DNA from: a virus
Virus record (IMG/VR): IMGVR_UViG_3300042307_002118
Span: 1 to 43,559 of that record
Strand: one strand, 5' to 3'
Length of the DNA stretch: 43,559 bases
How positions within the stretch are numbered: position 1 is the first letter of the stretch; each line of letters starts with the position of its first letter. A model generated the notes under the pieces. That model was not told where the DNA came from. It made no database searches and was given only the letters and a program-made list of their open reading frames with translations. A program made the translations under genes and the position numbers. Positions 19,419 to 43,559 of the stretch are shown here, one piece after another.

Positions 19419-19427
19419 GAAAGTTAC

Positions 19428-24638: not shown

Positions 24639-24942
24639 ATCTTCCGCAGCATCGTCTAGGTGCTGACGGAGAAGGTTGAGCAAATCCTTGAACAGGTTGA
24701 GCAGGAGCTGATCCTGGTTGTACAGGGCTTCTTCTTACTGGAACTAAATGATTTGATGAAGCACTCCGAAGAGTAGGCTTTTGTACAATAATTGGTGTTG
24801 TTGAAGCAATGTGATTAGAAATTTCACGAGAAGCCATTACTGGATCTTTATGAATATTTGTAGTAAAGACTACTTCGTCATTAAGCAAAGCATAGCCAAC
24901 ATAACCTCCATTTTCCGGAACAATTTTTGTTTTGTACTTCAT
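24637..24942 (-). CDS. Small late protein with proline-rich tail
   Basis: A 101-residue protein, MKYKTKIVPENGGYVGYALL onward. The N-terminal half looks like a small beta fold; the C-terminal half is Pro/Ala/Ser-rich and ends RRCCGR. It lies 12 bases downstream of the hub candidate and so is probably co-expressed with baseplate genes. The family is not recognised. Confidence 0.65.
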   Translation of the reverse strand: MKYKTKIVPENGGYVGYALLNDEVVFTTNIHKDPVMASREISNHIASTTPIIVQKPTLRSASSNHLVPVRRSPVQPGSAPAQPVQGFAQPSPSAPRRCCGR

Positions 24943-24953
24943 ACAATTAATTA

Positions 24954-28200: not shown

Positions 28201-28208
28201 AACAGTAT

Positions 28209-30428: not shown

Positions 30429-30437
30429 TCCGCCAAA

Positions 30438-30444
30438 TACTTAT
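30438..30444 (-). promoter_or_regulatory. Late-type promoter motif before tape measure gene
   Basis: The minus strand reads ATAAGTA, ending 9 bases before the ATG at 30428. It overlaps the start of the intergenic gap after the upstream gene. Confidence 0.5.
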
Positions 30445-30445
30445 G

Positions 30446-31231
30446 CTAACGAAGCGAGAATAGCGAGCCGTCAATTGGTACAATCTGACCATCGATGGTC
30501 AAGCATTCATCAATAACTTTTTTGTATTTTTCAATGTATTCAATTACTTTTTGAATTAAGGAAGCAGGAAGAGACTCAATTGTCTTGAGTCGAGATTTAA
30601 ACGTAACTGTAGAAAAATCAAGAGTTTTATCTCCAATTGTTATTGAGTAGATAGCCTTTGCAATCTCATTAATAAATGCTTCTCCAAGAACTTTCCTTAG
30701 CTCATCAGCATCATCAACGTTTAAATTAATGTTTTTATAAAGTTCTTCGTTTAATTGAGCTTCAGTAGCTAGCTCTGCTACACCAAAATGAATAGTAAGT
30801 TGACCTTCTGTAGCAGTGGATGAAACTAATAAATTAGCATTTTCTTTAAGTTGTTGCTCAAGTTTTTTATTAATTTCGTCAAAGTTTACAATAACCGTAG
30901 TATCTTGATTTTTGATACTCATGGTTGGAGAAAGAGAGTGAGTCCGAGTAGCAAGAATAAACAACAAGCGATCAATAACATTCAAACGTCTTCCTGGTAA
31001 TTCAATTAAAGATTCCTTAAAAATTTTAGTTGCAGTAGAATTAAAAGCAGCTTGAGTAAGCGGACTATCAACAATTGTTTTGATTAACTCTTTGAGTTGA
31101 GAAGTCGAAAGTTGTTTACAGTTAACTGTTTCGCATTCTCCTGCTTCATTAGGAGAAAGATCTAAGGAAAACACTTGCTCTTCTACAATTGAATTTAAAA
31201 GATCATAAAATTCTTTATTTTCTGTACTCAT
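30446..31231 (-). CDS. T4 gp26-like baseplate/tail assembly protein, B
   Basis: A 261-residue protein. The segment LPGRRLNVIDRLLFILATRT with SLSPTMSI matches the T4_baseplate (gp26) family, which is needed for hub assembly in T4. It is related to the gene immediately upstream (31240), which has the same motif, NVIDLFCLLLDVRINSLG. Adjacent related genes before a tape measure recall tail assembly chaperone pairs, but there is no frameshift between them. Confidence 0.7.
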   Translation of the reverse strand: MSTENKEFYDLLNSIVEEQVFSLDLSPNEAGECETVNCKQLSTSQLKELIKTIVDSPLTQAAFNSTATKIFKESLIELPGRRLNVIDRLLFILATRTHSLSPTMSIKNQDTTVIVNFDEINKKLEQQLKENANLLVSSTATEGQLTIHFGVAELATEAQLNEELYKNINLNVDDADELRKVLGEAFINEIAKAIYSITIGDKTLDFSTVTFKSRLKTIESLPASLIQKVIEYIEKYKKVIDECLTIDGQIVPIDGSLFSLR

Positions 31232-31239
31232 AATATTAT

Positions 31240-32139
31240 TTAAATTGATTCTTCAAGAAGTCCAGGATCTTCTTCATCTGGCGAAAAATCTTCTTCAGTT
31301 TGATCAGGAGAAGATTGTTTAGGAGACAAGACGTTTTTTAAACAAGTAACAAAATAATTGTATTCACCGACAGCTGAATTTTCTATGTACTCAGCATTCA
31401 TATGTCCGTGATGAGACAAGTAGAACAAGTTGTCATAGAATGATTCCAAGGACTCATTGAATATTAATTTAGTAAACCAAATCAACGAACTTAATGAAGG
31501 AAGAAAGTTCAAAGTTTGATCCTCAATTCCATACCGAGAAAGAAAATTTATCCCAGTAGCTGATTTTACAAACAATTCAAATTGTTCGATAATTTGTAAA
31601 GAAACTTTTGGAGAAAGCTTTTCAAAAAACATTTGAGCGTGATCGTTTGTTGTTATTTCTATAAATTTTGCGGAATTGTCTTTGTTAATGTATGAACCTT
31701 TTATAAAAGACAAGTATTCTTCGTTTGCGTTTTGAAGCAATCTCTCTATAGATGGACATTCAAACTCTACTTTTATGTTGTTTTGCTCGATTGTTGTGGA
31801 TAATACACTGAATACATTTTTTAAATCGTCTCGAATAAAATCTAAACGAAGCTCGAGATTCATTTTCTTGTCATCTTTTGTTATAACAACTTTACAAATA
31901 TCTCCTAAAGAATTAATTCGAACATCAAGCAACAAACAAAACAAATCAATTACGTTTAGTTTTTTAAAATATTCTGCTGGCTTGTTAGTAATTTTAGAAA
32001 AGAGTTCGCTGATCGTTTCAATAAAAATTAATTGATTTACATCATCTCCATACGTACACTTTAGTAGTTCTTTATAATCCTTAACTTGTAGTTCAGAACA
32101 AATTAAAGTATCTTTTGATAATTCACTAACAAATTTCAT
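31240..32139 (-). CDS. T4 gp26-like baseplate/tail assembly protein, A
   Basis: A 299-residue protein. The motif KKLNVIDLFCLLLDVRINSL plus LELRLDFIRDDLKNVFSVL fits the same family as gene B. The C-terminus is acidic (TEEDFSPDEEDPGLLEESI) and may be disordered. It is 8 bases upstream of B and shares direction and probably function. Confidence 0.7.
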   Translation of the reverse strand: MKFVSELSKDTLICSELQVKDYKELLKCTYGDDVNQLIFIETISELFSKITNKPAEYFKKLNVIDLFCLLLDVRINSLGDICKVVITKDDKKMNLELRLDFIRDDLKNVFSVLSTTIEQNNIKVEFECPSIERLLQNANEEYLSFIKGSYINKDNSAKFIEITTNDHAQMFFEKLSPKVSLQIIEQFELFVKSATGINFLSRYGIEDQTLNFLPSLSSLIWFTKLIFNESLESFYDNLFYLSHHGHMNAEYIENSAVGEYNYFVTCLKNVLSPKQSSPDQTEEDFSPDEEDPGLLEESI

Positions 32140-32899: not shown

Positions 32900-32914
32900 T
32901 AAAGCTACTTATCT

Positions 32915-33431: not shown

Positions 33432-33460
33432 TTGCTTTGTCCACATGTTCTCTCTATCAT
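33432..33460 (+). promoter_or_regulatory. TGTCC-type promoter, rightward, at the divergence point
   Basis: TTGCTT (33432-33437) then TGTCC with a 17-base spacer and TATCAT (33455-33460). It faces away from the late block. No good short gene follows before 33583, so it may serve a leader or act with the next promoter. Confidence 0.6.
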
Positions 33461-33547
33461 TCTCTCTAAGGGATCTCTCTAGCAAAACACATCACTCAAA
33501 AAAACAACAACATCATTTTTTCCAGACCAACTCAAAATTCTTTGATG

Positions 33548-33576
33548 TTGAGCTGTCCTCATACTTTTGTGATAGT
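33548..33576 (+). promoter_or_regulatory. TGTCC-type promoter for RadA-like gene
   Basis: TTGAGC (33548-33553), TGTCC, 17-base spacer, GATAGT (33571-33576), 6 bases before the ATG. Confidence 0.8.
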
Positions 33577-33582
33577 ATTCCC

Positions 33583-34500
33583 ATGATGCAAGTAATCACC
33601 AACTCCAATACCAATAAAAACTTCACACGTGCTTCTGCTGTTGTGATTCCTGAGATCTACAATCGTCGCTTTAAGACTGGTAAAGAAGATCTTGATAATA
33701 TGTTTGGTGGTAATGGTTTCTTGCCTGGCTTTACTTTTACTCTTGCTGCTGCACCAGGATCCGGCAAAACTTCGATGTTGTTGCAAGTACTTGAGTTGCT
33801 CGAGCAAACTGGTAAACGTACTGCCTACATTTCCGGAGAAGAAAATCTTGAACAACTTGCTTTTACATCAGCTCGTCTTGGAGTAAATCAAGTTCCTCTT
33901 GCTAACATTACTGATATTGATGAACTTTGCAATGCTATTGTTGAGAACAAGTTTGATTTTGTTGTAGTTGATTCACTTCCAGCGATTACTTCTAAGCACA
34001 AGATGAACAAGAAGCAGCTCGAAGAGTATATTACTACTAAGTTGATCAAGACTGCGAAAGAGAATGAGATTGTAATTGGTACTATTCTTCACTTTACAAA
34101 AGCTGGTACGTACAAAGGTAGTACGCTTTTGCCTCACAGTGTTGATTGTAACGTGATTATGACTCGTAACAAAGAAGACTACAATCTTCGTGATGTTGAT
34201 GTTACCAAAAATCGCTTTGGATCAGCCGGACAAGCGATCTTTGAGATGACTTCACGCGGATTTAGCTTCGAAGCTGTTGAGTCTGAAGCTCCTATGCAGC
34301 AAGGCTCTAAGAGCAAGAAGACTTCTAAGCGAGATCTTGTTATCGAAACTCTTGACGCTGAGAAGACTGTAGAAGCTATTGTTAAAGATTCTGGAGTGTC
34401 TGGTTCATACTTGACAACTCTTCTTCGTGAGTTAGTTACAGAAGGTGTTGTAACTAAGTCTGGCAAAGGAGCTTCTGCAACATACATGAAAAAAGCTTGA
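33583..34500 (+). CDS. RadA/RecA-like ATPase with C-terminal winged helix
   Basis: A 305-residue protein. It has Walker A APGSGKTSMLLQ near residue 60, RadA-type AYISGEENLEQLAFTSARLG, Walker B FDFVVVDSLPAI and the RadA signature KNRFGS. RadA in bacteria promotes branch migration. The zinc finger and Lon-like domain of RadA are missing; the last 60 residues instead look like a winged helix (EAIVKDSGVSGSYLTTLLRE, then VTKSGKGASATYMKK). It is a likely phage recombination ATPase, in the place of T4 UvsX. The ATG at 33583 (or 33586) is set by the promoter at 33548; an upstream frame from 33445 is not conserved in style. Confidence 0.85.
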   Translation: MMQVITNSNTNKNFTRASAVVIPEIYNRRFKTGKEDLDNMFGGNGFLPGFTFTLAAAPGSGKTSMLLQVLELLEQTGKRTAYISGEENLEQLAFTSARLGVNQVPLANITDIDELCNAIVENKFDFVVVDSLPAITSKHKMNKKQLEEYITTKLIKTAKENEIVIGTILHFTKAGTYKGSTLLPHSVDCNVIMTRNKEDYNLRDVDVTKNRFGSAGQAIFEMTSRGFSFEAVESEAPMQQGSKSKKTSKRDLVIETLDAEKTVEAIVKDSGVSGSYLTTLLRELVTEGVVTKSGKGASATYMKKA

Positions 34501-34524
34501 TCTGTCTGACTCATAGTATAGAAT
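34497..34524 (+). promoter_or_regulatory. TGTCC-type promoter (TGTCT variant)
   Basis: TTGATC (34497-34502), TGTCT, 16-base spacer, TAGAAT (34519-34524), 9 bases before ATG 34534. The TGA stop of the RadA-like gene lies in the -35 box. Confidence 0.75.
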
Positions 34525-34533
34525 AATTCAACA

Positions 34534-34740
34534 ATGAATAAAACGCTTTACGCAGATGGGTTAGAGAAAGCTCTAATTGGAGTTGGAACCCAATTTAATA
34601 AACAAATTGCTGTGTACAGCAAAGCTAAGGTGCTGGATATCTTGCAAAAATTTATGTCTTTAGAAGAAGCTGAAGAGTACTTTGACTATAACATTGCTGG
34701 AGCATATGTTGGAGAACACACTCCAGTCTTTTTGGATTGA
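34534..34740 (+). CDS. Small conserved phage protein
   Basis: A 68-residue protein. LIGVGTQFNKQIAVYSKAKV, then AEEYFDYNIAGAYVGEHTPV belongs to a common small phage family of unknown role. It has a promoter of its own and is probably expressed early. Its stop overlaps the next promoter. Confidence 0.8.
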   Translation: MNKTLYADGLEKALIGVGTQFNKQIAVYSKAKVLDILQKFMSLEEAEEYFDYNIAGAYVGEHTPVFLD

Positions 34741-34765
34741 CTTGTCCAAGCCAAAGACCTATACT
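34737..34765 (+). promoter_or_regulatory. TGTCC-type promoter
   Basis: TTGACT (34737-34742), TGTCC, 17-base spacer, TATACT (34760-34765), 10 bases before ATG 34776. The upstream stop TGA forms part of the -35 box. Confidence 0.8.
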
Positions 34766-34775
34766 CACTATTGAA

Positions 34776-34922
34776 ATGACAACTAATACGACAAATCTAC
34801 AAGACTGCTTGAGAGACCTAATTGATGTCCTCGTCGACAAATCGCTTTGGAATCTTCTGACTGACAAGGAAAGAGAAAAAGTATCAAAAGTAATTCAACA
34901 ATCAATGGAAGTACATGAATAA
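34776..34922 (+). CDS. Small hypothetical protein
   Basis: A 48-residue protein starting MTTNTTNLQDCLRDLIDVLV, predicted helical. The ATG at 34776 fits the promoter spacing; a longer frame from TTG 34737 would begin inside the -35 box. It overlaps the next gene by 8 bases, suggesting coupling. Function unknown. Confidence 0.65.
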   Translation: MTTNTTNLQDCLRDLIDVLVDKSLWNLLTDKEREKVSKVIQQSMEVHE

Positions 34923-35151
34923 CAAAACAACAAAAGAGCATGCTCAGATCCTAGCTCAATACATCTATGACTCTGATGTTCAGCATATTGACTATTCAGA
35001 TCATTGTGAACATAACCAAGATCCTCGCGAACATATTTTGTGGAGTGCTGCAGAAGTCCTTGGACTAGTTGATAGTGAAGGGTTTGCTGCAGAGCTTCAA
35101 GTTTGGGATGACAAGCAAACAGTTAAGAAACGTAAGCAAGGCACTTGGTGA
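34915..35151 (+). CDS. Small hypothetical protein
   Basis: A 78-residue acidic protein, MNNKTTKEHAQILAQYIYDS onward, ending in a basic KKRKQGTW. Its start overlaps the upstream gene. No domain is recognised. It shares the 34737 promoter. Confidence 0.65.
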   Translation: MNNKTTKEHAQILAQYIYDSDVQHIDYSDHCEHNQDPREHILWSAAEVLGLVDSEGFAAELQVWDDKQTVKKRKQGTW

Positions 35152-35162
35152 AGAATCTAAAA

Positions 35163-35504
35163 ATGAAAACTAAGAAGAAAGATAAATTTGTATATCTTGT
35201 TTATTGCAACACAGATCCGATTGTGTATGGAGTTTATAGCAACAAGCAGAGTGCTGTTCGTTATGCAATTCACTTGATTCGATATCGCAAAAAGCGAGCT
35301 AAAGAAAGAGGACACGAATTTGGTTATTATCATTTCCATCCATTGATGCAGCCTGTACAACTTAAATGGGCAAATGACTCTAATAGTCCGTATTACCATG
35401 ATCTTACAATGTTTTCGGCTTGTTTAAAGATTAAAGATGGAGCTAAAGATTATTCTGATGATGGTTGTAACATTAAGGTGCAACGAAAAATTTTAAATGA
35501 TTGA
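35163..35504 (+). CDS. Small hypothetical basic protein
   Basis: A 113-residue protein. The start KTKKKDKFVYLVYCNTDPIV and the following VYSNKQSAVRYAIHLIRYRK give a beta-alpha pattern found in many small phage proteins. ATG 35163 was chosen; GTG 35148 overlapping the upstream stop is possible. Function unknown. Confidence 0.65.
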   Translation: MKTKKKDKFVYLVYCNTDPIVYGVYSNKQSAVRYAIHLIRYRKKRAKERGHEFGYYHFHPLMQPVQLKWANDSNSPYYHDLTMFSACLKIKDGAKDYSDDGCNIKVQRKILND

Positions 35505-35509
35505 ATTTA

Positions 35510-35538
35510 TTGAGCTGTCTACAATGGCTCGCTAAAAT
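35510..35538 (+). promoter_or_regulatory. TGTCC-type promoter (TGTCT variant)
   Basis: TTGAGC (35510-35515), TGTCT, 17-base spacer, TAAAAT (35533-35538), 10 bases before ATG 35549. Confidence 0.75.
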
Positions 35539-35548
35539 CATTCCCAAT

Positions 35549-35863
35549 ATGAAAACCCCTAAAGTCACAAACGACTCATCAAAAGCTAGTGGAACATGCT
35601 TCATTGGTTATCTTCCTACTACCTATGACACTCTTCGAGAGAAACTTGGAGAACCTCTTACTGGATACTCTGGTGATGAAAAAGTAACATGCGAATGGAT
35701 TATTGAGTTTGAAAATGGTTCAGTAGGAACAATTTATGATTGGAAGACAAACGCAACTCCTCTCAATGAATACAACTGGCATGTTGGAGGTCGAGGTATC
35801 AACACTCTTGACAAAGTCGGTAGGTTTGTTGGACTCGATACTCGTCAAACTCTTTTTGCATAA
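35549..35863 (+). CDS. Conserved phage protein (EWHVGG type)
   Basis: A 104-residue protein. YDTLREKLGEPL, VTCEWIIEFENGSVGTIYDW and YNWHVGGRG match a small family common in many phages, with unknown function. The ATG is set by promoter spacing; the longer frame from 35501 spans the promoter. Confidence 0.75.
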   Translation: MKTPKVTNDSSKASGTCFIGYLPTTYDTLREKLGEPLTGYSGDEKVTCEWIIEFENGSVGTIYDWKTNATPLNEYNWHVGGRGINTLDKVGRFVGLDTRQTLFA

Positions 35864-36135
35864 TTATTTGCATTGATTATTTTTAATTGTATTTAATTGA
35901 ATTTCCCGTACGTAAACCGTTAAAATTTAATCATTAAAATAATACAAAAATTAGTATTATTTCTTGATTTTGAATAAAATTTGCTGGATTGAATGTACTA
36001 AAAAAGGTGCACGAATTTATTTAATAATTTTCTCGTAGCAAAATTTGCATTTCCCGTACGTAAAAATGATTAAAAATAATGATAAAATGATCGTTTCTTT
36101 TTAGTTTTAAAATACAAGAATAGTCGACAAATCAA
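35864..36135 (+). other. AT-rich gene-free region with 16-base direct repeats
   Basis: About 270 bases without a reading frame, much more AT-rich than the neighbours. ATTTCCCGTACGTAAA occurs at 35901-35916 and 36049-36064, 148 bases apart, each with the palindrome CGTACG. It has runs such as TTAAAATTTAATCATTAAAA. It could be a replication origin or a protein-binding region. No promoter of the main type lies inside. Confidence 0.55.
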
Positions 36136-36164
36136 TTGACTTGTCCAAAGCAATAATGCAGAAT
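36136..36164 (+). promoter_or_regulatory. TGTCC-type promoter
   Basis: TTGACT (36136-36141), TGTCC, 17-base spacer, CAGAAT (36159-36164), 8 bases before ATG 36173. Confidence 0.7.
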
Positions 36165-36172
36165 AGCACGCA

Positions 36173-36346
36173 ATGAAGAAAGAATTTGTTTCTGGCGAAT
36201 ATATTGTGACTAAAGATGGACACAGAGGATATGTCATCGAGAAGCTTGGAGACATGAATATGTATCAAATTCGTCTTGCAAGTGGTTACACAATTCGCTC
36301 TGGACAAGATATCGAGCATGACAGCTTGATGGATGATATAGAATAA
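36173..36346 (+). CDS. Small hypothetical protein
   Basis: A 57-residue protein, MKKEFVSGEYIVTKDGHRGY onward, ending DDIE. The gene sits at the proper distance from its promoter. It looks like a small beta barrel (GEYIVTKDGHRGYVIEKLG) of the type seen in many phage operons. Function unknown. Confidence 0.75.
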   Translation: MKKEFVSGEYIVTKDGHRGYVIEKLGDMNMYQIRLASGYTIRSGQDIEHDSLMDDIE

Positions 36347-36349
36347 TTC

Positions 36350-36378
36350 TTGACCTGTCCTTTAAACCGCAAGAACAT
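36350..36378 (+). promoter_or_regulatory. TGTCC-type promoter
   Basis: TTGACC (36350-36355), TGTCC, 17-base spacer, GAACAT (36373-36378), 7 bases before ATG 36386. Confidence 0.7.
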
Positions 36379-36385
36379 ACATAAT

Positions 36386-36538
36386 ATGAAAAAAGCACTA
36401 ATTCGATTCCTAGATGGAACTTTGGTTGACGTAAAGTATAAAGTTACTGGAGACAATGAAATTTATATAGAATGGTCAAATTCGTGTAATGCAAAGCAAA
36501 CAATCTGGATTACGCTAGATCGCGTTGAACTTGTATGA
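36386..36538 (+). CDS. Small hypothetical protein
   Basis: A 50-residue protein, MKKALIRFLDGTLVDVKYKV onward. The predicted fold is beta-rich. It overlaps the next gene by ATGA (36535-36538), which suggests coupling. Function unknown. Confidence 0.7.
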   Translation: MKKALIRFLDGTLVDVKYKVTGDNEIYIEWSNSCNAKQTIWITLDRVELV

Positions 36539-36894
36539 CCCATTCATTAGTAACAATTTATCGGTTGCCTTGGTCTGTCGATCACCACAAGATTCGAGAA
36601 GACTGGTTTCAAGAGAGACAAGAAGTCTTTCACTATCGCTCTGAGCTTGAAGGAGAAAAAGCTGCAGAAGAAGCATTTCATATTACGAATGCTCCAGACG
36701 AATGCTTGACGGACGATCAAAAGACGATCATTGCAATGAACGAATTCAAAGGACCTTCTCTTAGTGTTGGAGATGTTGTTCGAGTAAAGCCATTTGAAAC
36801 AAGTACTCTCCCAACATATTATCTCTGCAAGTCTTTTGGTTGGGAGAAGTTCGAAGGAGATGTCATTAAGTTGTTGAAACTCTTTTCTTGGTAA
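36535..36894 (+). CDS. YodL-like phage protein
   Basis: A 119-residue protein. YRLPWSVDHHKIREDWFQ, AEEAFHITNAPDECLT, then GPSLSVGDVVRVKPF and YYLCKSFGWEKF give the order of the YodL-like family seen in many phages and plasmids (LSVSDVV...YYVDSFGF). Function unknown. It is coupled to the preceding gene. Confidence 0.75.
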   Translation: MTHSLVTIYRLPWSVDHHKIREDWFQERQEVFHYRSELEGEKAAEEAFHITNAPDECLTDDQKTIIAMNEFKGPSLSVGDVVRVKPFETSTLPTYYLCKSFGWEKFEGDVIKLLKLFSW

Positions 36895-36897
36895 AAT

Positions 36898-37158
36898 ATG
36901 ATCTGTAAAGTTTGTAACAAACCCATTGAGCAAGAACGATTATCAATTCTCCCAAACACAGTATTCTGTGCCCCATGTGCCCAGAAGTATAGTAAAGTGG
37001 AGGCACGAAAAGGAATTATGGTATTTGACCAAAAGACCGGCGGAACTCTTTGTACGATGCCAGCATCTTACTACAATAGCAACCGACAGTACTTTAAGCC
37101 AAACGGCAAGAATGGACGCTCTGTAATGAAGAACTTTTCGAAAAACATTTGCACATGA
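36898..37158 (+). CDS. DksA/TraR-like C4 zinc-finger protein
   Basis: An 86-residue protein. CKVCNKPIEQERLSILPNTV is followed by a second CAPCA, matching the C4 zinc finger of DksA/TraR proteins, which act at the RNA polymerase secondary channel. The coiled coil of DksA is absent, so a role on RNA polymerase is only a possibility. The C-terminus has GGTLCTMPASYY. The HNH cassette starts at its stop. Confidence 0.75.
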   Translation: MICKVCNKPIEQERLSILPNTVFCAPCAQKYSKVEARKGIMVFDQKTGGTLCTMPASYYNSNRQYFKPNGKNGRSVMKNFSKNICT

Positions 37159-37947
37159 TTATTTTATACAACGTCCTTTTGCTGCACAAGCTCGACTACA
37201 ATACTTTTTTTGTTTGAGTTTGCCAGGTTTGCCGTGTATGAATTTACCACAATGGTTGCAAGGTTTAGATGACATGCTTACGCGTTCTGCAACTGCTCGG
37301 GGTTTTCCTTTTCTATAGGCATTTACACAAGCATGAGAACAAAATACTCTTTTTTTAATTTCATTAGGCTGAGCCTGAAATAAAGTTTCACAATTTAAAC
37401 ATTTTTTGTTTGATGTTTTAATTCGAGACAACTTCGCACATTTAGGCGTACAAAATTTTCTATGATTGTTCGTTGGAGTAACAAAAAAATCAGAGCTACA
37501 GTGTAAACACTTCTTTTTCACTTCTTTTTTCATGCTTTTGTATTTGCATTTCGTGTTGCAAAATTTTCTATTCAAACATTCTAATGCAACTATTTCCTTT
37601 TCGCAATAATGACAATTAGTAACCACTTTAGGTTTCCATTTATTTTTCCTTTTTAACCAACCATACATTTTATTTCCTTTTCGTCCTGAATTACTCTTTG
37701 TGGTATATGTCATTATATACACAGCTCTCCAAAGCCCTACGTGATTTGGGTAAATTTTTACCAATAATTGATGGCAAACGTAGTGCTCTTCTGGTGTTAA
37801 AGCAACAATGTTTTCTCTTTCGTCAGTTCCACCCATACAACGAGGAATAATGTGGTGATTTTCTATATAACCTACTATTGAATCCCTTGTTTTAGCTCGA
37901 TTTACAATTTTTTCGTATATTGCTTTATAGTATGCTGCACTTTTCAT
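37159..37947 (-). CDS. HNH homing endonuclease with tandem zinc fingers
   Basis: A 262-residue protein. The HNH motif is ENHHIIPRCMGGTDERENIV with the final His in EEHYVCHQLL. Four Cys4 fingers with CxxC and CxxxC pairs follow from residue about 112 to 258, starting CHYC, CLHC, CLNC and CNHC. It is antisense to the early genes and abuts the zinc-finger gene stop. Expression is probably late from an ATAAGTA motif, as for the GIY-YIG genes. Confidence 0.9.
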   Translation of the reverse strand: MKSAAYYKAIYEKIVNRAKTRDSIVGYIENHHIIPRCMGGTDERENIVALTPEEHYVCHQLLVKIYPNHVGLWRAVYIMTYTTKSNSGRKGNKMYGWLKRKNKWKPKVVTNCHYCEKEIVALECLNRKFCNTKCKYKSMKKEVKKKCLHCSSDFFVTPTNNHRKFCTPKCAKLSRIKTSNKKCLNCETLFQAQPNEIKKRVFCSHACVNAYRKGKPRAVAERVSMSSKPCNHCGKFIHGKPGKLKQKKYCSRACAAKGRCIK

Positions 37948-38050
37948 ATTTTAGTCATAAATACTTATCGCTCAAGTCCTGTTTTTCTGGTTTACTTTTC
38001 ATATTTTAGTCGATAGAAATTGTGGTTAGAAACAGGACTTGAGTTTTTTT
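37939..38050. promoter_or_regulatory. Control module upstream of HNH gene
   Basis: CTCAAGTCCTGTTT (37971-37984) pairs perfectly with AAACAGGACTTGAG (38030-38043) over 14 bp, followed by seven T on the plus strand. ACTTTTCATATTTTAGTC is repeated at 37939-37956 and 37994-38011; the first copy contains the HNH start codon. The late motif ATAAGTA lies at 37968-37962 on the minus strand. The same layout occurs at both GIY-YIG genes. Confidence 0.75.
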
Positions 38051-38051
38051 A

Positions 38052-38080
38052 TTGAGCTGTCCTCCAGCTCTTGCTATAGT
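38052..38080 (+). promoter_or_regulatory. TGTCC-type promoter for GP88-like gene
   Basis: TTGAGC (38052-38057), TGTCC, 17-base spacer, TATAGT (38075-38080), 10 bases before ATG 38091. Confidence 0.85.
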
Positions 38081-38090
38081 CTTTTCTGTA

Positions 38091-38765
38091 ATGAGCACAC
38101 TACTTGCAACCAACACCAAACTCGAAAAAGGATCAACATTCAATTGGACATCGAGAGGTCTTTCTCTTGCTCCTGCAAACCTTTCTGGCAAACAGCTTTG
38201 CCCCCATCGTTCTCCAGGATGTGAGTTCTCTTGTCTGAACACTGCAGGAATGGGAAAGTTCTCGTATGTTCAGGAAGCTCGTATTAAAAAGTCTAAGATG
38301 TTGATTGAGAATAGAGAAGAATTTCTCACAAAGCTCAACAAAGAGCTTGAGTCTCTTAATAAGAAAGCTTTGAAGGGCACGCAAATTGCTGTCCGTCTGA
38401 ATGTTCTGTCGGACGTTCCTTGGTACAACATGATTGATATGGAGTCTTACAAGAACCTTCGCTTCTATGACTACACTCCTAACGCCGGACGAATGATCGA
38501 GTTCCTGCAAGGCAAGCTTCCAGCTAACTATCATCTAACCTTCTCGCGCAAAGAGAATAACCAAGCCAAAGTTGAGTTGATCTCTTCGATGGGTGGCAAT
38601 GTGGCAGTAGTGTTCGACAAGCTTCCGGAAACCTATCTCGGAAAGCCAGTTATTGATGGAGATGCAAGCGACTTGCGATTCCTTGATCCAAAAGGAGTTA
38701 TTGTTGGCCTGAAAGCCAAAGGAAAAGGCAAAAAGGACACATCAGGCTTTGTGATTAAAGCTTGA
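38091..38765 (+). CDS. GP88-like family protein
   Basis: A 224-residue protein. CPHRSPGCEFSCLNTAGMG near residue 40, VRLNVLSDVPWYNM, FYDYTPNAGRMIEF, NYHLTFSRKEN and DGDASDLRFLDPKGVIVGLK match the GP88-type family found in many phages. The three Cys near the N-terminus could bind metal or an iron-sulphur cluster, but this is not proven. Function unknown. It is codon-richer in GC than its neighbours. The ATG is set by promoter spacing. Confidence 0.8.
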   Translation: MSTLLATNTKLEKGSTFNWTSRGLSLAPANLSGKQLCPHRSPGCEFSCLNTAGMGKFSYVQEARIKKSKMLIENREEFLTKLNKELESLNKKALKGTQIAVRLNVLSDVPWYNMIDMESYKNLRFYDYTPNAGRMIEFLQGKLPANYHLTFSRKENNQAKVELISSMGGNVAVVFDKLPETYLGKPVIDGDASDLRFLDPKGVIVGLKAKGKGKKDTSGFVIKA

Positions 38766-38790
38766 GCTGTCCACCATCAACCTCTAAGAT
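38762..38790 (+). promoter_or_regulatory. TGTCC-type promoter
   Basis: TTGAGC (38762-38767), TGTCC, 17-base spacer, TAAGAT (38785-38790), 10 bases before ATG 38801. The stop TGA of the upstream gene lies in the -35 box. Confidence 0.85.
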
Positions 38791-38800
38791 CAATCCTGTA

Positions 38801-39283
38801 ATGAGCACTACTACTATCAAATTCAACGAAGAGGTCTGCACTCTCACGAGCATGTCGAAGCTAGAATCCTATAGTTCGAAGCAGAAGCACACAATGGTTA
38901 GCATTTGCAATCCCTTTGATCCTGAAGAGCTTAACTGGAATGGAATTACAGAACGACCAGAGTATTCTGTCAAAGGAGATGATAAAGCTATCGACAAGCT
39001 GTGGAGGAAGTACAACAAGGCAGAGCTTGAGATTCAACGAGTTATTATCAATCAAGCCGTCGAAGCAGGCTTGATCAAAGACAACATTGCTAAACAGCTA
39101 AAGTGGTCTCGCACAGCCATGTGTAGTTGTGGCTGCAGCCCAGGATGGAAAGCAAAGGATTTCGGTCGTCAAACTATTTGGTTGACAGTAACTTCTCCCT
39201 CCAAAGAGCAAGAGAAGAAAGAACGCAGGCAAGCACAAGAGTCGGAGAAAGAACAAAGGACTCTTGCCTCAATGATCATTTGA
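38801..39283 (+). CDS. Hypothetical protein
   Basis: A 160-residue protein. A Ser/Lys-rich start is followed by helices and a Cys pair region (MCSCGCSPGWKAKDFGR) that could bind metal. The C-terminus is charged (KEQEKKERRQAQESEKEQ) and probably a helix. No family recognised. It is preceded by its own promoter. Confidence 0.75.
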   Translation: MSTTTIKFNEEVCTLTSMSKLESYSSKQKHTMVSICNPFDPEELNWNGITERPEYSVKGDDKAIDKLWRKYNKAELEIQRVIINQAVEAGLIKDNIAKQLKWSRTAMCSCGCSPGWKAKDFGRQTIWLTVTSPSKEQEKKERRQAQESEKEQRTLASMII

Positions 39284-39308
39284 CCTGTCCAAGAGGAATC
39301 TGTAGGAT
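39280..39308 (+). promoter_or_regulatory. TGTCC-type promoter
   Basis: TTGACC (39280-39285), TGTCC, 17-base spacer, TAGGAT (39303-39308), 7 bases before ATG 39316. The stop of the previous gene is in the -35 box. Confidence 0.85.
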
Positions 39309-39315
39309 ATAAAGC

Positions 39316-39498
39316 ATGAAAGAACACGAAATGGAAAGCTACTTGATGGAAGTCCTCGATTGGGCACAAAACGAGGACGGAATGATTGTGGATATAGACA
39401 CATTCGAGAGTGCTGGATTGATGACGAATAATCAAGGTCTAGTTCTTAAAATGAAGGACGGAAGTCAATTCCAGCTCAAGATCACCAAGTCAAAATAG
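39316..39498 (+). CDS. Small hypothetical protein
   Basis: A 60-residue acidic protein, MKEHEMESYLMEVLDWAQNE onward, with a beta hairpin end (LVLKMKDGSQFQLKITKSK). Function unknown. One gene, one promoter. Confidence 0.75.
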   Translation: MKEHEMESYLMEVLDWAQNEDGMIVDIDTFESAGLMTNNQGLVLKMKDGSQFQLKITKSK

Positions 39499-39501
39499 TT
39501 C

Positions 39502-39530
39502 TCGACCTGTCCACCAACACTCTGTAAGAT
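39502..39530 (+). promoter_or_regulatory. TGTCC-type promoter
   Basis: TCGACC (39502-39507), TGTCC, 17-base spacer, TAAGAT (39525-39530), 9 bases before ATG 39540. Confidence 0.8.
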
Positions 39531-39539
39531 TATTCCATA

Positions 39540-39746
39540 ATGAAAACGCAACTGACAGAAGACCAAATCGACAAGCTCAACAACTTGATTGAGTTCACCA
39601 TCCTCCCAGCTCTGCAAGAAGACATCTGCATTCCAGACATGAGCGACAAGAACGAAGAAGACGAAGGATTCGAAGAATGCTACGACGATCGTGTTCAAGT
39701 TCTTTATCGTCAAGCTACTAACTATCTCCGCAACAACATTATCTAA
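39540..39746 (+). CDS. Small acidic hypothetical protein
   Basis: A 68-residue protein, MKTQLTEDQIDKLNNLIEFT onward, acidic in the middle (DKNEEDEGFEEC). Predicted helical. Function unknown. Followed at 39750 by a second small gene on the same transcript. Confidence 0.7.
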   Translation: MKTQLTEDQIDKLNNLIEFTILPALQEDICIPDMSDKNEEDEGFEECYDDRVQVLYRQATNYLRNNII

Positions 39747-39749
39747 GAC

Positions 39750-39893
39750 ATGAAACACTACGAGATCAAAGCATATTCAAATTGGCAACGTCCACAAACA
39801 TTCGTTGTCGATACAGAGTCTGAACGAGAAGAGTTGATCCTTACTTTGAAGGACCAGCAATACAAAGTCGAGTGGGAAGAGATTCAAGATTGA
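39750..39893 (+). CDS. Small hypothetical protein
   Basis: A 47-residue protein, MKHYEIKAYSNWQRPQTFVV onward. It lies 3 bases after the previous stop and shares its promoter. Its TGA stop is part of the next promoter's -35 box. Function unknown. Confidence 0.65.
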   Translation: MKHYEIKAYSNWQRPQTFVVDTESEREELILTLKDQQYKVEWEEIQD

Positions 39894-39918
39894 TCTGTCC
39901 ATAATTACTCTCTAAGAT
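39890..39918 (+). promoter_or_regulatory. TGTCC-type promoter
   Basis: TTGATC (39890-39895), TGTCC, 17-base spacer, TAAGAT (39913-39918), 10 bases before ATG 39929. Confidence 0.85.
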
Positions 39919-39928
39919 TATTCCTGAA

Positions 39929-40240
39929 ATGATTCTTATATACAAACACAAAGCAGAATACGATAAAGACGCAGGTAGTATGACGATTATGAAAGCAGAT
40001 TTTGTTGCTTTTAGAGATGAGAACAACCAATTTTCCGTTGTTAAATCTCGTTATACCTTACGTGGGGAACGGAACATACAACAATTGGTTGAGGCATTAA
40101 AAACCACAATTCAAGAATATAGTAATATCCCTGAAAAGACGAAAGACATGTATTTTGAAACTCTGCCAAAAGACGTCGAAGAGATTGTAGTAAAAGGAAT
40201 TAGGTATAAGAGAAAGACCAGTTGGGAAAAGATTTCTTGA
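39929..40240 (+). CDS. Small hypothetical protein
   Basis: A 103-residue protein, MILIYKHKAEYDKDAGSMTI onward. Alternating strands and helices; basic C-terminus (RYKRKTSWEKIS). Function unknown. Confidence 0.7.
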   Translation: MILIYKHKAEYDKDAGSMTIMKADFVAFRDENNQFSVVKSRYTLRGERNIQQLVEALKTTIQEYSNIPEKTKDMYFETLPKDVEEIVVKGIRYKRKTSWEKIS

Positions 40241-40265
40241 AGTGTCCGAACGAATCCTCTAAGAT
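40237..40265 (+). promoter_or_regulatory. TGTCC-type promoter
   Basis: TTGAAG (40237-40242), TGTCC, 17-base spacer, TAAGAT (40260-40265), 10 bases before ATG 40276. The upstream stop is in the -35 box. Confidence 0.8.
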
Positions 40266-40275
40266 TGATCCCAAG

Positions 40276-40512
40276 ATGAAAGCAACAATCGCTCCTAATG
40301 AAATCAAAGTAGAGTATTCAATCCGTCCGGACGTTGGTAGAGAGTTCTTGACAATTGATATCGAAGGCTGGGATGATGTTAAGAAGCTCACAAAGAAAGT
40401 CCTTGTCCATGAAGGAAAGAAGTTTACATTTACAGGATGGTGCTCAGATAAGAATAAATGTTACTTTGCAAAGCCAATCAATGGAGAAGCGAGTACTGCA
40501 AAGATAGTCTAA
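40276..40512 (+). CDS. Small hypothetical protein
   Basis: A 78-residue protein, MKATIAPNEIKVEYSIRPDV onward, predicted mixed alpha/beta. ATG 40276 fits promoter spacing; the frame from 40222 spans the promoter. Function unknown. Confidence 0.7.
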   Translation: MKATIAPNEIKVEYSIRPDVGREFLTIDIEGWDDVKKLTKKVLVHEGKKFTFTGWCSDKNKCYFAKPINGEASTAKIV

Positions 40513-40520
40513 CAAAAGAA

Positions 40521-40549
40521 TTGTATTGTCCACTTCAATCCTATAATAT
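40521..40549 (+). promoter_or_regulatory. TGTCC-type promoter
   Basis: TTGTAT (40521-40526), TGTCC, 17-base spacer, TAATAT (40544-40549), 7 bases before ATG 40557. Confidence 0.8.
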
Positions 40550-40556
40550 CTTATCC

Positions 40557-40853
40557 ATGATTGCTAATCCATATTATACTGATTCAACATCCCTTCCTAC
40601 ATTCCTCCCAATTCCTCACGTCTGTGCATCTGTATTCAAATGGATTGACGGAGTAGGAACTGCAAAAGCTTCAGACCTATTTTCAAATGCAAATAATGTT
40701 CCTCCGACCTTTGCAATGAAATCTCCATTGACAGGAAAAGTAAAGTTATTTGATTATTGCTTGGAAGAAGCTGTAGAAAATGAGTATTGGGACGGAGAGT
40801 TTCAAAAATTCACTACAAGCTGTGGACTTATAGCAATTGTTTGGAATTGTTAG
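40557..40853 (+). CDS. Hypothetical protein
   Basis: A 98-residue protein, MIANPYYTDSTSLPTFLPIP onward, with FKWIDGVGTAKASDLF in the middle. The last gene before the repeat region. Function unknown. Confidence 0.65.
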   Translation: MIANPYYTDSTSLPTFLPIPHVCASVFKWIDGVGTAKASDLFSNANNVPPTFAMKSPLTGKVKLFDYCLEEAVENEYWDGEFQKFTTSCGLIAIVWNC

Positions 40854-40940
40854 CCAAAATGACCTTGCACAAATTCAGGAAAGGTCTTGAGAATCATATA
40901 CTTCCGTTGAGTGTTTAACTTCAAGATCTCAAAGATTGTT

Positions 40941-41075
40941 CGCAGATAGAACAGAACTTGTAAAGATTCTGCAGAGATAGAAAAGAATTTACAGTATTTT
41001 TACAGGATTTTGCAAAGATAGAAAAGAATTTACAGGATTTTTGCAGGATTTTGCAGAGATAGAAAAGAATTTGCG
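40941..41075 (+). repeat. 41-base tandem repeat array
   Basis: A 41-base unit begins GCAGAGATAGAAAAGAATTT, with copies at 40971-41011, 41012-41052 and a partial at 41053-41075, and a degenerate copy from 40941. It lies in a gene-free region of 438 bases (40854-41291), together with the next array. No hairpin structure typical of CRISPR is present. Confidence 0.8.
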
Positions 41076-41138
41076 TAGCTGTTTAACAAGACACTTAGTT
41101 GGTCAATTAATTTAAGTCTCTTTACAGCCCTATACATA

Positions 41139-41243
41139 ACCTGCCAAATCTCTTGCAGTACCTGCCAAAGTCTCTGCAGTACCTGCCAAAGTCTCTGCAG
41201 TACCTGCCAAATCTCTTGCAGTACCTGCCAAATCTCTTCTACC
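41139..41243 (+). repeat. 21-base tandem repeat array
   Basis: Five directly adjacent 21-base units start ACCTGCCAAATCTCTTGCAG; two units have AAAGTCTC instead. The last unit is degraded. There are no spacers. The array could bind a protein or serve as iterons of an origin; the sequence does not decide. Confidence 0.85.
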
Positions 41244-41291
41244 CCACTCCCCTCAAAATTATCTCCCCACTCTTAATAAGTATTCTATAGA

Positions 41292-41480
41292 ATGCCTACC
41301 TACGAGCCTTATACTACTTTCACAAAGCAAAGTAAAGAAATTGAAAGACTCTCTTCTGCTCTGGAGAAAGCTCTGGAACTCAATCATACCCACTTGCAAG
41401 AAATTGAATATTTGAAAGCTTCTCTGGAGACTTTGAGGAATTGTTGTGCAGTAGTTGATATTAAGACATTTGGCAATTGA
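41292..41480 (+). CDS. Small coiled-coil protein
   Basis: A 62-residue protein, MPTYEPYTTFTKQSKEIERL onward, with heptad-like ERLSSALEKALEL, then QEIEYLKASLETL. It has the late-type ATAAGTA 8 bases upstream of the ATG, plus TATTCT. Related in style to the next gene (PTYE start). Function unknown. Confidence 0.65.
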   Translation: MPTYEPYTTFTKQSKEIERLSSALEKALELNHTHLQEIEYLKASLETLRNCCAVVDIKTFGN

Positions 41481-41504
41481 CTTGTTAAATTATTAAAGTA
41501 TTCT
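41477..41504 (+). promoter_or_regulatory. TTGACT promoter (TGTTA variant)
   Basis: TTGACT (41477-41482), 16-base spacer, TATTCT (41499-41504), 6 bases before ATG 41511. The stop of the previous gene is in the -35 box; TGTCC is changed to TGTTA. Confidence 0.6.
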
Positions 41505-41510
41505 TCTTGT

Positions 41511-41642
41511 ATGGATTCTACTGAGCCTACCTACGAAGAACTTGTTCTGATTATTGATAAGCTTACTAAGGAGAATGCAAGATTGCAATATATCTTAGAT
41601 TCAATTCCCGATGAACCTTCTGTAGAGAGTATTACACTATAG
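41511..41642 (+). CDS. Small acidic coiled-coil protein
   Basis: A 43-residue protein, MDSTEPTYEELVLIIDKLTK onward, ending VESITL. A 14-base stretch, TTCCCGATGAACCT (41605-41618), is repeated at 41694-41707 inside the RNA candidate. Function unknown. Confidence 0.65.
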   Translation: MDSTEPTYEELVLIIDKLTKENARLQYILDSIPDEPSVESITL

Positions 41643-41645
41643 CTG

Positions 41646-41674
41646 TTGACCTGTCCTGAGATTGGATATAGACT
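41646..41674 (+). promoter_or_regulatory. TGTCC-type promoter driving the structured RNA region
   Basis: TTGACC (41646-41651), TGTCC, 17-base spacer, TAGACT (41669-41674). The expected start is at about 41681, 3 bases before an ATG, but what follows is structured and GC-richer than the genes. Confidence 0.75.
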
Positions 41675-41680
41675 AATTAA

Positions 41681-42121
41681 AGAATGGAGGAGGTTCCCGA
41701 TGAACCTCTGGGACTGGGAATACCTGGTCGAACTCAAAATCGGAAATTGTTCTCTACCAGAGGTAGGAAACCTACAGAGGCTTCACCGGTGAGCCAGCTA
41801 TGCGAATCAGCGGTATTGATTTTTGACATTTTATTTTTGCTGAACTGGGGGAAATGGGGCTTCATGCCCTGTCCTGTAAGCGTAGATTATACCCTGCTAT
41901 GTGGGGAAGCGCGACAAAGGCTTACCCCAGTGCGGCTAATTTTTAGCAGACCCGCCATGCCTCTGCTTGCAAGAAGTAGTTTCTGAAGTACAAAGAAATG
42001 AAAGCGAGACCCATGCACACTTTGGCGGGTATTCTTTATATGGCCGGCGGATGAGAGAGTAAGCGACAGAAACGATCACCTGTGGGCTCCAATAATGCCG
42101 AGTATACCCGGCCACCTTTTT
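41681..42121 (+). ncRNA. Large structured noncoding RNA candidate next to tRNAs
   Basis: About 440 bases, clearly richer in GC than neighbours. Paired segments include GAGGTTC/GAACCTC (41690-41696, 41702-41708), GTAGG/CCTAC (41763, 41771), CCAG...CAGC with GCTG-AA-CTGG (41794-41811, 41839-41848), TGGGGAAGC with GCTTACCCCA (41902-41910, 41920-41929), and TGGCCGG/CCGGCCA (42041-42047, 42108-42114). A pseudoknot is possible: AGCAGA/TCTGCT (41945, 41962) crossed by CCCGCCA/TGGCGGG (41951, 42023). A T-run ends it. The context (phage, beside tRNAs) recalls the ornate GOLLD and ROOL RNAs; membership is not proven. A 100-codon frame (41684-41986) crosses it but has no recognisable protein character. 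Confidence 0.65.
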
Positions 42122-42124
42122 AAT

Positions 42125-42200
42125 AACAGGGTAGCTCAATTGGTAGAGTAGCGGTCTCCAAAACCGTTTGTTGAAGGTTCAAGTCCTTCTCCTGTTGCCA
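42125..42200 (+). tRNA. tRNA-Trp (CCA anticodon)
   Basis: 76 bases. The acceptor stem pairs AACAGGG with TCCTGTT; the anticodon loop is CTCCAAA, giving anticodon CCA. The T arm is GAAGG-TTCAAGT-CCTTC. The CCA end is encoded (42198-42200). It fits the standard cloverleaf. Confidence 0.95.
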
Positions 42201-42208
42201 CCTTTTAT

Positions 42209-42310
42209 AGAAGTGTAGCTCAGTTGGTAGAGCTGCAACCCACTCATGGTAAAGGACCTAACGCTGTGGGGAAAAGCAAGCCGTTGGTTCGAATCCAACC
42301 ACTTCTTCCA
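42209..42310 (+). tRNA. tRNA-like gene with abnormal anticodon arm (Met CAT possible)
   Basis: 102 bases. The acceptor stem (AGAAGTG with CACTTCT), D arm (GCTC/GAGC) and T arm (GTTGG-TTCGAAT-CCAAC) are perfect and the CCA end is encoded. The 48 bases between D and T arms do not fold into a 17-base anticodon arm. The best pairing, CCCA with TGGG, encloses CTCAT and about 17 extra bases. It may be a tRNA-Met with an insertion beside the anticodon, a class II-like form or a decayed tRNA. Confidence 0.65.
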
Positions 42311-42343
42311 ATTTGTCGCAGTATCCGATCAGGCAGGTTTAAA

Positions 42344-42394
42344 TGAGTATCTGACGTCCAACGGGTTAAAGACCCGGTAGCCAATGCAGACTCA
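42344..42394 (+). ncRNA. Structured hairpin after tRNAs
   Basis: TGAGT-AT-CTG (42344-42353) pairs with CAG-ACTCA (42387-42394), and inside it CGGGT (42362-42366) pairs with ACCCG (42372-42376). It lies directly before the next promoter. It could be part of an RNA processing unit or a further RNA element. Confidence 0.5.
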
Positions 42395-42398
42395 GCTG

Positions 42399-42426
42399 TT
42401 GACATTCTCTCTAAATGTAGTATGAT
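42399..42426 (+). promoter_or_regulatory. Consensus sigma70-like promoter
   Basis: TTGACA (42399-42404), 16-base spacer, TATGAT (42421-42426), 7 bases before ATG 42434. This is the nearest to the bacterial consensus in the window. It has TTCTCTCT in place of TGTCC and again just after -10. Confidence 0.8.
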
Positions 42427-42433
42427 TCTCTCT

Positions 42434-42559
42434 ATGGATATGTTTATTACTTGCTTGCAGTACTTCTGCTACGGCTACACAGCTGTAACATTGACTGGCA
42501 CTTTCCTTATTTTCTTTCTGACTTATTGGGCAGAGATTAGAAACAAAGATTCTGAATAA
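42434..42559 (+). CDS. Small membrane protein
   Basis: A 41-residue protein, MDMFITCLQYFCYGYTAVTL onward, with a single membrane segment (AVTLTGTFLIFFLTYW) and a charged end (AEIRNKDSE). It has the strongest promoter in the region. The role is unknown; small phage membrane proteins often act on the host envelope or in exclusion. Confidence 0.7.
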   Translation: MDMFITCLQYFCYGYTAVTLTGTFLIFFLTYWAEIRNKDSE

Positions 42560-42579
42560 GAATTCTTTGGAATTCTTTT
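42558..42579 (+). terminator. AT-rich terminator-like hairpin
   Basis: AAGAATTC (42558-42565) and GAATTCTT (42570-42577) form a perfect 8-bp stem with loop TTTG, followed by four T in all. It overlaps the stop of the small membrane gene. The T-run is short. Confidence 0.5.
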
Positions 42580-43126
42580 GCAATTTTTAAACTGTCTTTT
42601 CTCTCTGAACTAGTTGGGTCAATCTTTATTCAGCTTGGTATCTGGAAGGTTATCATTTCCTAACAACAGATTTATAAACCGTCACCTACTCTTTAAAGAC
42701 GTCAGTCAGTTAGAATGTTTTGAAGTATCTTTGATTGTTCTCTCTCTCAGTTCTTTTGGGTCTTCAGCGTTAATCATCTGCCATATAGGACTTACTGTGT
42801 AGCCGTCACCAACCGAACATCATAAGAGTTCTCTCTGGATATTTCAACTTTTATTTATCAATTCTCTCTTATTTTTTTCGAGATATTGAAGATCAATGGT
42901 TTAGAAGATTTTTCCTCCAACTGGAAAGCATTGTGGAGCAATGATTTGGACAAGTCAAATCTCTTCTATAACTCCCTCCCTTCAAAAGCTTTACGTAAAC
43001 AATTATCAATCAACGAGCTACACAAGATCTTTTAAAGGCAGCCCTCCGTCCCCTACTCTCGGAGTCTTACGTCCTGTTCGCCCTGGTCTTTGGTCGAGGC
43101 TCACCTTCTTCCCTGATTGTTCATAT
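42580..43126. other. Gene-free region with recurrent TTCTCTCT motifs
   Basis: I see no convincing coding region here on either strand. TTCTCTCT-like runs recur near 42597, 42742, 42828 and 42860, as they do just after promoters at 33460 and 42426. CCGTCACC occurs twice (near 42679 and 42803). The right part, from about 43040, is GC-richer and includes CTCCG/CGGAG (inverted on the minus strand). A TTGACTTGTCC on the minus strand (42958-42948) resembles a leftward promoter with a weak -10 box. Leftward transcription from 43127 should cross this region. Confidence 0.4.
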
Positions 43127-43155
43127 ATTATCGAGACTCCTGGAGGACAGCTCAA
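43127..43155 (-). promoter_or_regulatory. TGTCC-type promoter facing left
   Basis: On the minus strand: TTGAGC (43155-43150), TGTCC, 17-base spacer, GATAAT (43132-43127). An ATG follows after 2 bases, but it is stopped after 7 codons, so a noncoding RNA or antisense transcript is the more likely product. Confidence 0.6.
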
Positions 43156-43181
43156 CAGAAAAGAGAACTAGAATTTTTGGA

Positions 43182-43313
43182 ATGGATCAAGCGAGCCTGG
43201 ATCTTCTTGCCAGATTCTACACAAAACAATTTTTACGCGATCCTCACGCCAAGAATCGCTGTGTCTTGCGCCGGGCTTTGAAAGGAATATTCCGAGACGA
43301 TTCCAGAATCTAG
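43182..43313 (+). CDS. Small basic hypothetical protein
   Basis: A 43-residue protein, MDQASLDLLARFYTKQFLRD onward, basic and predicted helical (NRCVLRRALKGIFRDDSRI). It precedes the next promoter, whose -35 begins right after its stop. It lacks an obvious promoter of its own; TAGAAT lies 7 bases before the ATG without a -35 box. Confidence 0.55.
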   Translation: MDQASLDLLARFYTKQFLRDPHAKNRCVLRRALKGIFRDDSRI

Positions 43314-43342
43314 TTGAGCTGTCCATCATGATTGCTGATAGT
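43314..43342 (+). promoter_or_regulatory. TGTCC-type promoter
   Basis: TTGAGC (43314-43319), TGTCC, 17-base spacer, GATAGT (43337-43342), 10 bases before ATG 43353. Confidence 0.85.
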
Positions 43343-43352
43343 CTTCCCTGTA

Positions 43353-43559
43353 ATGAATACAACATCCGATACTATTAACGACTACATCAAAGCACTCCGG
43401 GAGCGAGCCAATCAAGTTGGAGGACTGGATTATGCAATGGGGTACCTTCACACCACGCTAGAGCAACTCAAGCTTCAGAGCTATGAGCTAGAGCAACTTC
43501 AAAAAGACGCTGAAAATCTTCGCATCATGATTGCTGAAGATAATATTGACCTGTCCACC
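43353..43559 (+). CDS. Small coiled-coil protein, partial
   Basis: At least 69 codons, open at the window edge. It starts MNTTSDTINDYIKALRERAN and contains LEQLKLQSYELEQLQKDAE, probably a coiled coil. At 43546 a further TTGACC-TGTCC box (probable next promoter) lies inside or at the end of the coding region; its TGA is out of frame here. Function unknown. Confidence 0.65.
   Translation, partial: MNTTSDTINDYIKALRERANQVGGLDYAMGYLHTTLEQLKLQSYELEQLQKDAENLRIMIAEDNIDLST

Follow-up and report, generated by a model that had tools for sequence, protein, structure and literature searches.

Phage T4 is the textbook case of a phage whose genes carry leaders and are translated from Shine-Dalgarno (SD) sequences. 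In the Thermus thermophilus phage phiYS40, most middle and late mRNAs are leaderless (PMC3594737). Among bacteria, for example Actinobacteria and Deinococcus-Thermus, TA-led leaderless genes carry a TANNNT motif some 10-12 bp upstream of the start codon and lack an SD (PMC3160421; PMC12340547), the motif near the ATG being an accepted hallmark of such genes (PMC3160421). Here we analyze a virus record of IMG/VR (IMGVR_UViG_3300042307_002118; 43,559 bases, referred to in its entirety as the window), in which an earlier note, made from the letters alone, had described a block of small genes, single or in pairs, each preceded by a promoter lying almost on the start codon. The data below make it quite probable that the window belongs to a lineage of the T4 superfamily in which both early and late genes are expressed largely without leaders.

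The motif TTGANNTGTC is present 21 times in the window, compared to a mean of 2.6 and a maximum of 8 in 100 shuffled versions, none of which reaches 21. The sites pointed out in the earlier note are all present, and the enrichment excludes chance. Between 33.5 and 43.5 kb, 14 open reading frame (ORF) starts are preceded by TTGANNTGTCY, or by a version with one mismatch, followed by a −10 box and then by an ATG (first 14 lines below); the −35 motif begins with TCGA at 39502 and TTGT at 40521. In 13 of the 14, the first base of the −10 box lies 23 bases past the first T of TTGA, giving a 17-bp spacer, while the spacer at 34497 is 16 bp. The end of the −10 box is separated from the ATG by 6-10 nt (9 nt at 33548 with the second in-frame ATG, 33586). 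Taking the eighth base after the −10 box as +1, predicted leaders in the window are 0-3 nt, the one at 33548 being counted from 33586, a start which is supported by orthologues and fits the relatives better than 33583. The suggestion that these mRNAs would offer no space for an SD is thus upheld by the predicted geometry, which is kept in four other contigs (see below). A generic sigma-70 scan hardly exceeds chance (33 versus 24.8), indicating that the signal is carried by the specific motif.

33548-33576, + strand: early promoter TTGAGCTGTCC-N12-GATAGT before a RecA/DnaB-like ATPase gene (ATG 33583 or 33586, end 34500)
34497-34524, + strand: early promoter TTGATCTGTCT, 16-bp spacer, TAGAAT; ATG 34534
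34737-34765, + strand: early promoter TTGACTTGTCC ... TATACT; ATG 34776, leader 3
35510-35538, + strand: early promoter TTGAGCTGTCT ... TAAAAT; ATG 35549, leader 3
36136-36164, + strand: early promoter TTGACTTGTCC ... CAGAAT; ATG 36173, leader 1
36350-36378, + strand: early promoter TTGACCTGTCC ... GAACAT; ATG 36386, leader 0
38052-38080, + strand: early promoter TTGAGCTGTCC ... TATAGT; ATG 38091 of a GP88-family gene (to 38765), leader 3
38762-38790, + strand: early promoter TTGAGCTGTCC ... TAAGAT, overlapping the stop codon of the preceding gene; ATG 38801, leader 3
39280-39308, + strand: early promoter TTGACCTGTCC ... TAGGAT; ATG 39316, leader 0
39502-39530, + strand: early promoter TCGACCTGTCC (TCGA) ... 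TAAGAT; ATG 39540, leader 2
39890-39918, + strand: early promoter TTGATCTGTCC ... TAAGAT; ATG 39929, leader 3
40237-40265, + strand: early promoter TTGAAGTGTCC ... TAAGAT; ATG 40276, leader 3
40521-40549, + strand: early promoter TTGTATTGTCC (TTGT) ... TAATAT; ATG 40557, leader 0
43314-43342, + strand: early promoter TTGAGCTGTCC ... GATAGT; ATG 43353, leader 3; the gene runs beyond the contig
41646-41674, + strand: promoter copy TTGACCTGTCC ... TAGACT; no convincing ORF, a G+C-richer stretch and two tRNA genes downstream
43546-43559, + strand: promoter box truncated by the contig end
33432: weaker copy TTGCTTTGTCC, TATCAT; no ATG at the right distance
43127-43155, − strand: promoter copy TTGAGCTGTCC ... 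GATAAT; no ORF
42930-42958, − strand: promoter copy TTGACTTGTCC ... CACAAT; no ORF at the right distance

The two minus-strand copies, starting at 43155 and 42958, add to those counted previously. Scanning IMG/VR for the whole layout identified four further contigs with several copies each (G001 to G004). G003 alone has 32 reverse-strand copies, nearly all within 4-43 kb; some other contigs of the lineage (G008, G014 and G018) have a few copies and many fragments none. Over all contigs, 102 sites pass the filter, with the ATG most often offset from the start of the box by 36 (27 sites) or 39 bases (48 sites); offsets of 35, 37, 38 and 40 are each represented by fewer sites. The motif precedes 76 gene starts with at most one mismatch, whereas permuted motifs do so at 0.8 starts on average and 8 at most. 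When the −10 box is not imposed, A is found at −11 in 93% and T at −7 in 94% of the sites. The first base of the −10 box lies 13 or 16 nt before the ATG at most sites. For long-class sites, G is predicted at +1 in 90% of cases, the preceding base is T or C in 98%, and the 3-nt leader before the ATG is mostly GTT or GTA. Orthologues of the small genes are conserved from the predicted ATG onward, and those of the gene at 39316 in G001 and G003 keep the leader of 0. Since the boxes are located between tightly packed genes, one might regard them as conserved intergenic elements of a polycistronic mRNA, processing or binding sites, instead of promoters. The occurrence of a −10 box and TTGA at 17-bp spacing, the pyrimidine-purine step at the predicted start and the opposite-strand copies without a gene make this explanation very improbable.

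The TGTCC sequence (approximately −29 to −25) may be a contact for either host RNA polymerase or a phage factor. It is at least as constant as TTGA: sites with one or two mismatches have 38 mismatched positions in total, of which the A of TTGA accounts for the largest share (12). Furthermore, T is found at −12 in only 60% of the sites, which is weak for a −10 box operating without an activator, and a GTW-ATG form of the promoter has one match in 84,980 prokaryote species genomes, so that the element looks phage-specific. These features would be expected if the promoters were activator-dependent, with a transcription factor (phage or injected) bound to the whole of TTGANNTGTCC (−35 to −25), as at the MotA box of T4 middle promoters, and TTGA not mainly a −35 motif; transcripts would still be leaderless. 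We regard this as a serious possibility, short of the reading we favor. A 17-bp spacer between TTGA and the −10 box is the classic sigma-70 layout, and the genome collection may simply lack the host. No MotA-like protein was found, in a search that lacked a positive control and gave no match even in the controls.

The affiliation of the window follows from its relationship to G001, a 217-kb contig with which it has more than 20 proteins in common (identity up to 90%). G001 encodes the gp23 major capsid protein, a T4-type gp43 DNA polymerase, the late sigma factor gp55 and a tail sheath, and thus all three marks of the T4 superfamily (gp23, gp43 and gp55). The window is a fragment without them, and its genes are assigned to a T4-like phage because of the proteins common to G001. 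Compared with phages in the annotated collection, G001 has a gp23 of only about 34% identity, while 331 IMG/VR stretches encode a relative (80 were kept, all at least 77% identical). Hence, the lineage is common and without a near relative in the annotated collection. It is a little-known group of T4-like viruses of aquatic bacteria. An association of the motif with the GP88-family gene was considered and rejected, as GP88 relatives in other contigs lack the motif; the latter therefore goes with the phage group and not with this gene.

Late genes show a comparable arrangement. In 26% of the genes in the window, 20% in G003 and 25% in G001, the ATG is preceded by a T4-type late box, TAARTA, whose end lies 4-9 nt away; the figure for shuffled sequences is about 1%. 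The same count gives 0-2% in T4, P-SSM2, S-CAM9, Mosig and OC, where most boxes are found 15-54 nt upstream. SD tetramers precede 8-12% of all genes in the lineage, versus 22-63% in the five control phages; at the motif genes, their frequency is near chance. T4 late transcription starts about six bases past the late box, so late mRNAs of the lineage should be nearly leaderless too. The contrast with five other T4-like phages, in both late-box distance and SD frequency, bears out the opinion of the earlier note that such an organization is unusual in this group. The layout described there for a single block is real, but it is not limited to the block, since late genes share it with a different promoter. 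Late boxes in the window include the following:

16558-16563, − strand: TAAATA, ending 7 nt before ATG 16550 of the virion protein gene 14475-16550
32906-32911, − strand: TAAGTA, ending 6 nt before ATG 32899
19425-19430, − strand: TAAGTA, ending 6 nt before ATG 19418
5759-5764, − strand: TAAGTA, ending 7 nt before ATG 5751
28206-28211, − strand: TAAATA, ending 5 nt before ATG 28200
31237-31242, − strand: TAAATA, ending 5 nt before ATG 31231

Could the position of the promoters be a by-product of genome compaction? A stop-to-ATG distance of 35-40 nt fits a promoter and not a leader, and proteins might be made mainly from read-through mRNAs initiated at upstream promoters. Many boxes touch or overlap the stop codon of the gene upstream, the TGA stop being the TGA of TTGA at 30 of 101 sites. 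Terminator-like sites are not in excess (6 versus 7.0 in shuffled sequences), suggesting that the modules are probably not transcriptionally isolated and that read-through between them is likely. Several genes (34915, 36535, 36898 and 39750) have no box of their own and are presumably co-transcribed. Thus, the independence of the modules proposed initially is less well supported than the predicted leader lengths, and "one gene, one promoter" is an approximate description. As an account of the geometry itself, compaction appears improbable. In other compact T4-like phages, the late box stays mostly 15-54 nt away, and the read-through mRNAs would also be without SDs. Moreover, leader lengths form two discrete classes, 0 and 3 nt, and promoters of two unrelated types sit at the same leaderless distance; this speaks for a selected mRNA 5′ end and against an accident.

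Contigs from relatives provided indirect evidence on the 5′ ends. Among the IMG/VR contigs carrying g23, short ones of at most 3.6 kb terminate within 130 nt past the g23 match in 26 of 29 cases, compared to 1 of 24 for longer ones, and several of the short contigs stop inside or at the end of the g23 terminator hairpin. Judging from these ends, the short contigs seem to derive from transcripts. Two of them (L148 and L149) start with ACC-ATG and CC-ATG of g22 (−3 and −2) and two more (L215 and L158) just inside g22. At the sheath gene, six short contigs start at +10 to +22, while none of about 15 starts between −100 and +9; six starts in a 50-nt window have a chance of approximately 5e-5 under a simple uniform model whose bounds were chosen after seeing the data. 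Starts of this kind would be expected from leaderless mRNAs whose 5′ ends had been trimmed slightly. Together, these data indirectly place 5′ ends at or just inside the ATG in two late operons of relatives. No transcript-like contigs of early genes were seen, the contigs matching early genes all being at least 9 kb long.

Several points weigh against largely leaderless expression. The transcript nature of the short contigs is deduced from their ends and not from sample records; their agreement with the predicted 5′ ends covers only the g22 and sheath operons, and at the latter trimming must be assumed to account for starts 10-22 nt inside the gene. Start codons were assigned by taking the longest ORF and its first ATG. 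Neither an early nor a late box adjoins most ATGs of the lineage, genes with one being a minority in each contig; those without a recognizable box are operon-internal or have other, unrecognized signals. Finally, the operon-internal g23 has a good SD (AAGGAG) in most relatives, so SD-led starts are also in use.

With these reservations, we favor a model of largely leaderless expression, whose promoter geometries, conservation and departure from other T4-like phages are apparent at the sequence level. The block would be the early region, in which most genes have their own sigma-70-type promoter (TTGANN, a 17-bp spacer opening with TGTCC, TAnnnT), presumably read by the host RNA polymerase. Transcription would begin on the start codon itself in the short class (leader 0), and about 3 nt before it in the long class (GTT/GTA-ATG). 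Ribosomes would then initiate on the 5′-terminal or near-terminal AUG without SD pairing, genes internal to the same mRNAs being read by coupling or by an SD, as at g23 of relatives. Late genes would be transcribed from T4-type (gp55) promoters, whose TAARTA box ending 4-9 nt before the ATG would make the mRNAs equally leaderless. A more far-reaching version of the model, in which a widespread lineage has converted both early and late expression to 0-3 nt leaders, reads the phage-specific 11-base box TTGANNTGTCC through a dedicated phage factor and has altered translation toward 5′-terminal AUGs, strikes us as doubtful.

As to the host, alignment of gp23 revealed no relative in the genome collection. 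Rhodomicrobium, which provides the single GTW-ATG promoter match in that collection, was dismissed as a chance occurrence. Leaderless expression would be in keeping with an actinobacterial host, but no match supports one. Weakly against such a host is the presence of a gene for ribosomal protein bS21 in G001 (216525-216686) and G014 (10290-10451, − strand), a Corynebacterium control having no bS21. PDB matches of the phage bS21, which is possibly linked to translation initiation, name no host. No IF3-like gene scored above the cut-off.

A number of other features were recorded. At 43155-43040 (− strand), a promoter copy is followed by about 65 conserved bases and no ORF, as it is in G003 (43572-43665, + strand), at the same junction of early and late genes. 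The RNA downstream is possibly a small RNA; its folding energy is not unusual in the window (z 0.26) and only weakly so in G003 (z −1.47). The promoter copy opening the interval 41646-42110 precedes a G+C-richer stretch with a weak, below-threshold match to abiF RNA (41951-42030). A second tRNA-like gene (42209-42307; Rfam tRNA, 47 bits), not called by ARAGORN, has about 25 extra bases in the anticodon arm, possibly reflecting an intron or an unusual tRNA. G001 (24603-25036; L129 4603-5036) and G004 (41052-41508; L139 1052-1508, − strand) have tmRNA genes; ARAGORN reads from both a similar, long tag peptide that ends in EYELAA. Two runs of short repeat units (about GAATTTACAGGATTTTTGCAG and CCTGCCAAATCTCTTGCAGTA) occupy non-coding DNA of the early region at 40930-41230. 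Upstream of a transposase-like gene (5927-7549), the sequence GGCTGTCCTCTA...AATATATTTACAC, which contains TGTCC, is nearly identical to that preceding a G003 gene (30177-31391, − strand). Lastly, genes 16582-16953 and 19428-19802 (both − strand) have a nearly identical upstream sequence, CAATAGGATACTAA, and match the same place in G001; a duplicated gene or domain is probable.

Promoter placement suggests that these phages rely on an unusual mode of translation start. A T4 relative with two unrelated promoter types placed on the start codon would offer a natural test of why leaders exist. The box-ATG geometry could serve to recognize true gene starts in these phages and, as a clue to the host, points to an organism translating leaderless mRNA well; a new promoter-specific phage factor is possible. 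A survey of the open literature, which omits most subscription papers, found no leaderless T4-like phage. The nearest precedent is phiYS40, which resembles what is predicted for the present lineage in the genome-wide extent of leaderless expression. However, phiYS40 is not shown to be T4-like, its promoters and host are different, and its leaderlessness was measured, along with changes in IF2 and IF3; here, leaderlessness is predicted, includes early genes and involves T4-type late promoters. The TANNNT motif near the ATG and the scarcity of SDs are found both here and in TA-led bacterial genes, but the present case concerns a phage whose promoters combine a strong −35 region with an additional TGTCC and include a second class, with predicted leaders of 3 nt. 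T4 middle promoters have a MotA box near −30, the spacing to the −10 box being fixed. The early promoters likewise have a conserved box near −30 with fixed spacing from the −10 box, although we take the sequence of TTGANNTGTCC to differ from the MotA box, and TTGA is present at −35. With T4, T4-like cyanophages and pelagiphages, the lineage has in common the core genes, the gp55 late sigma factor and the TAARTA late box; it departs from them in late-box position, theirs being mostly 15-54 nt ahead of the ATG, and in SDs, which are common among them.

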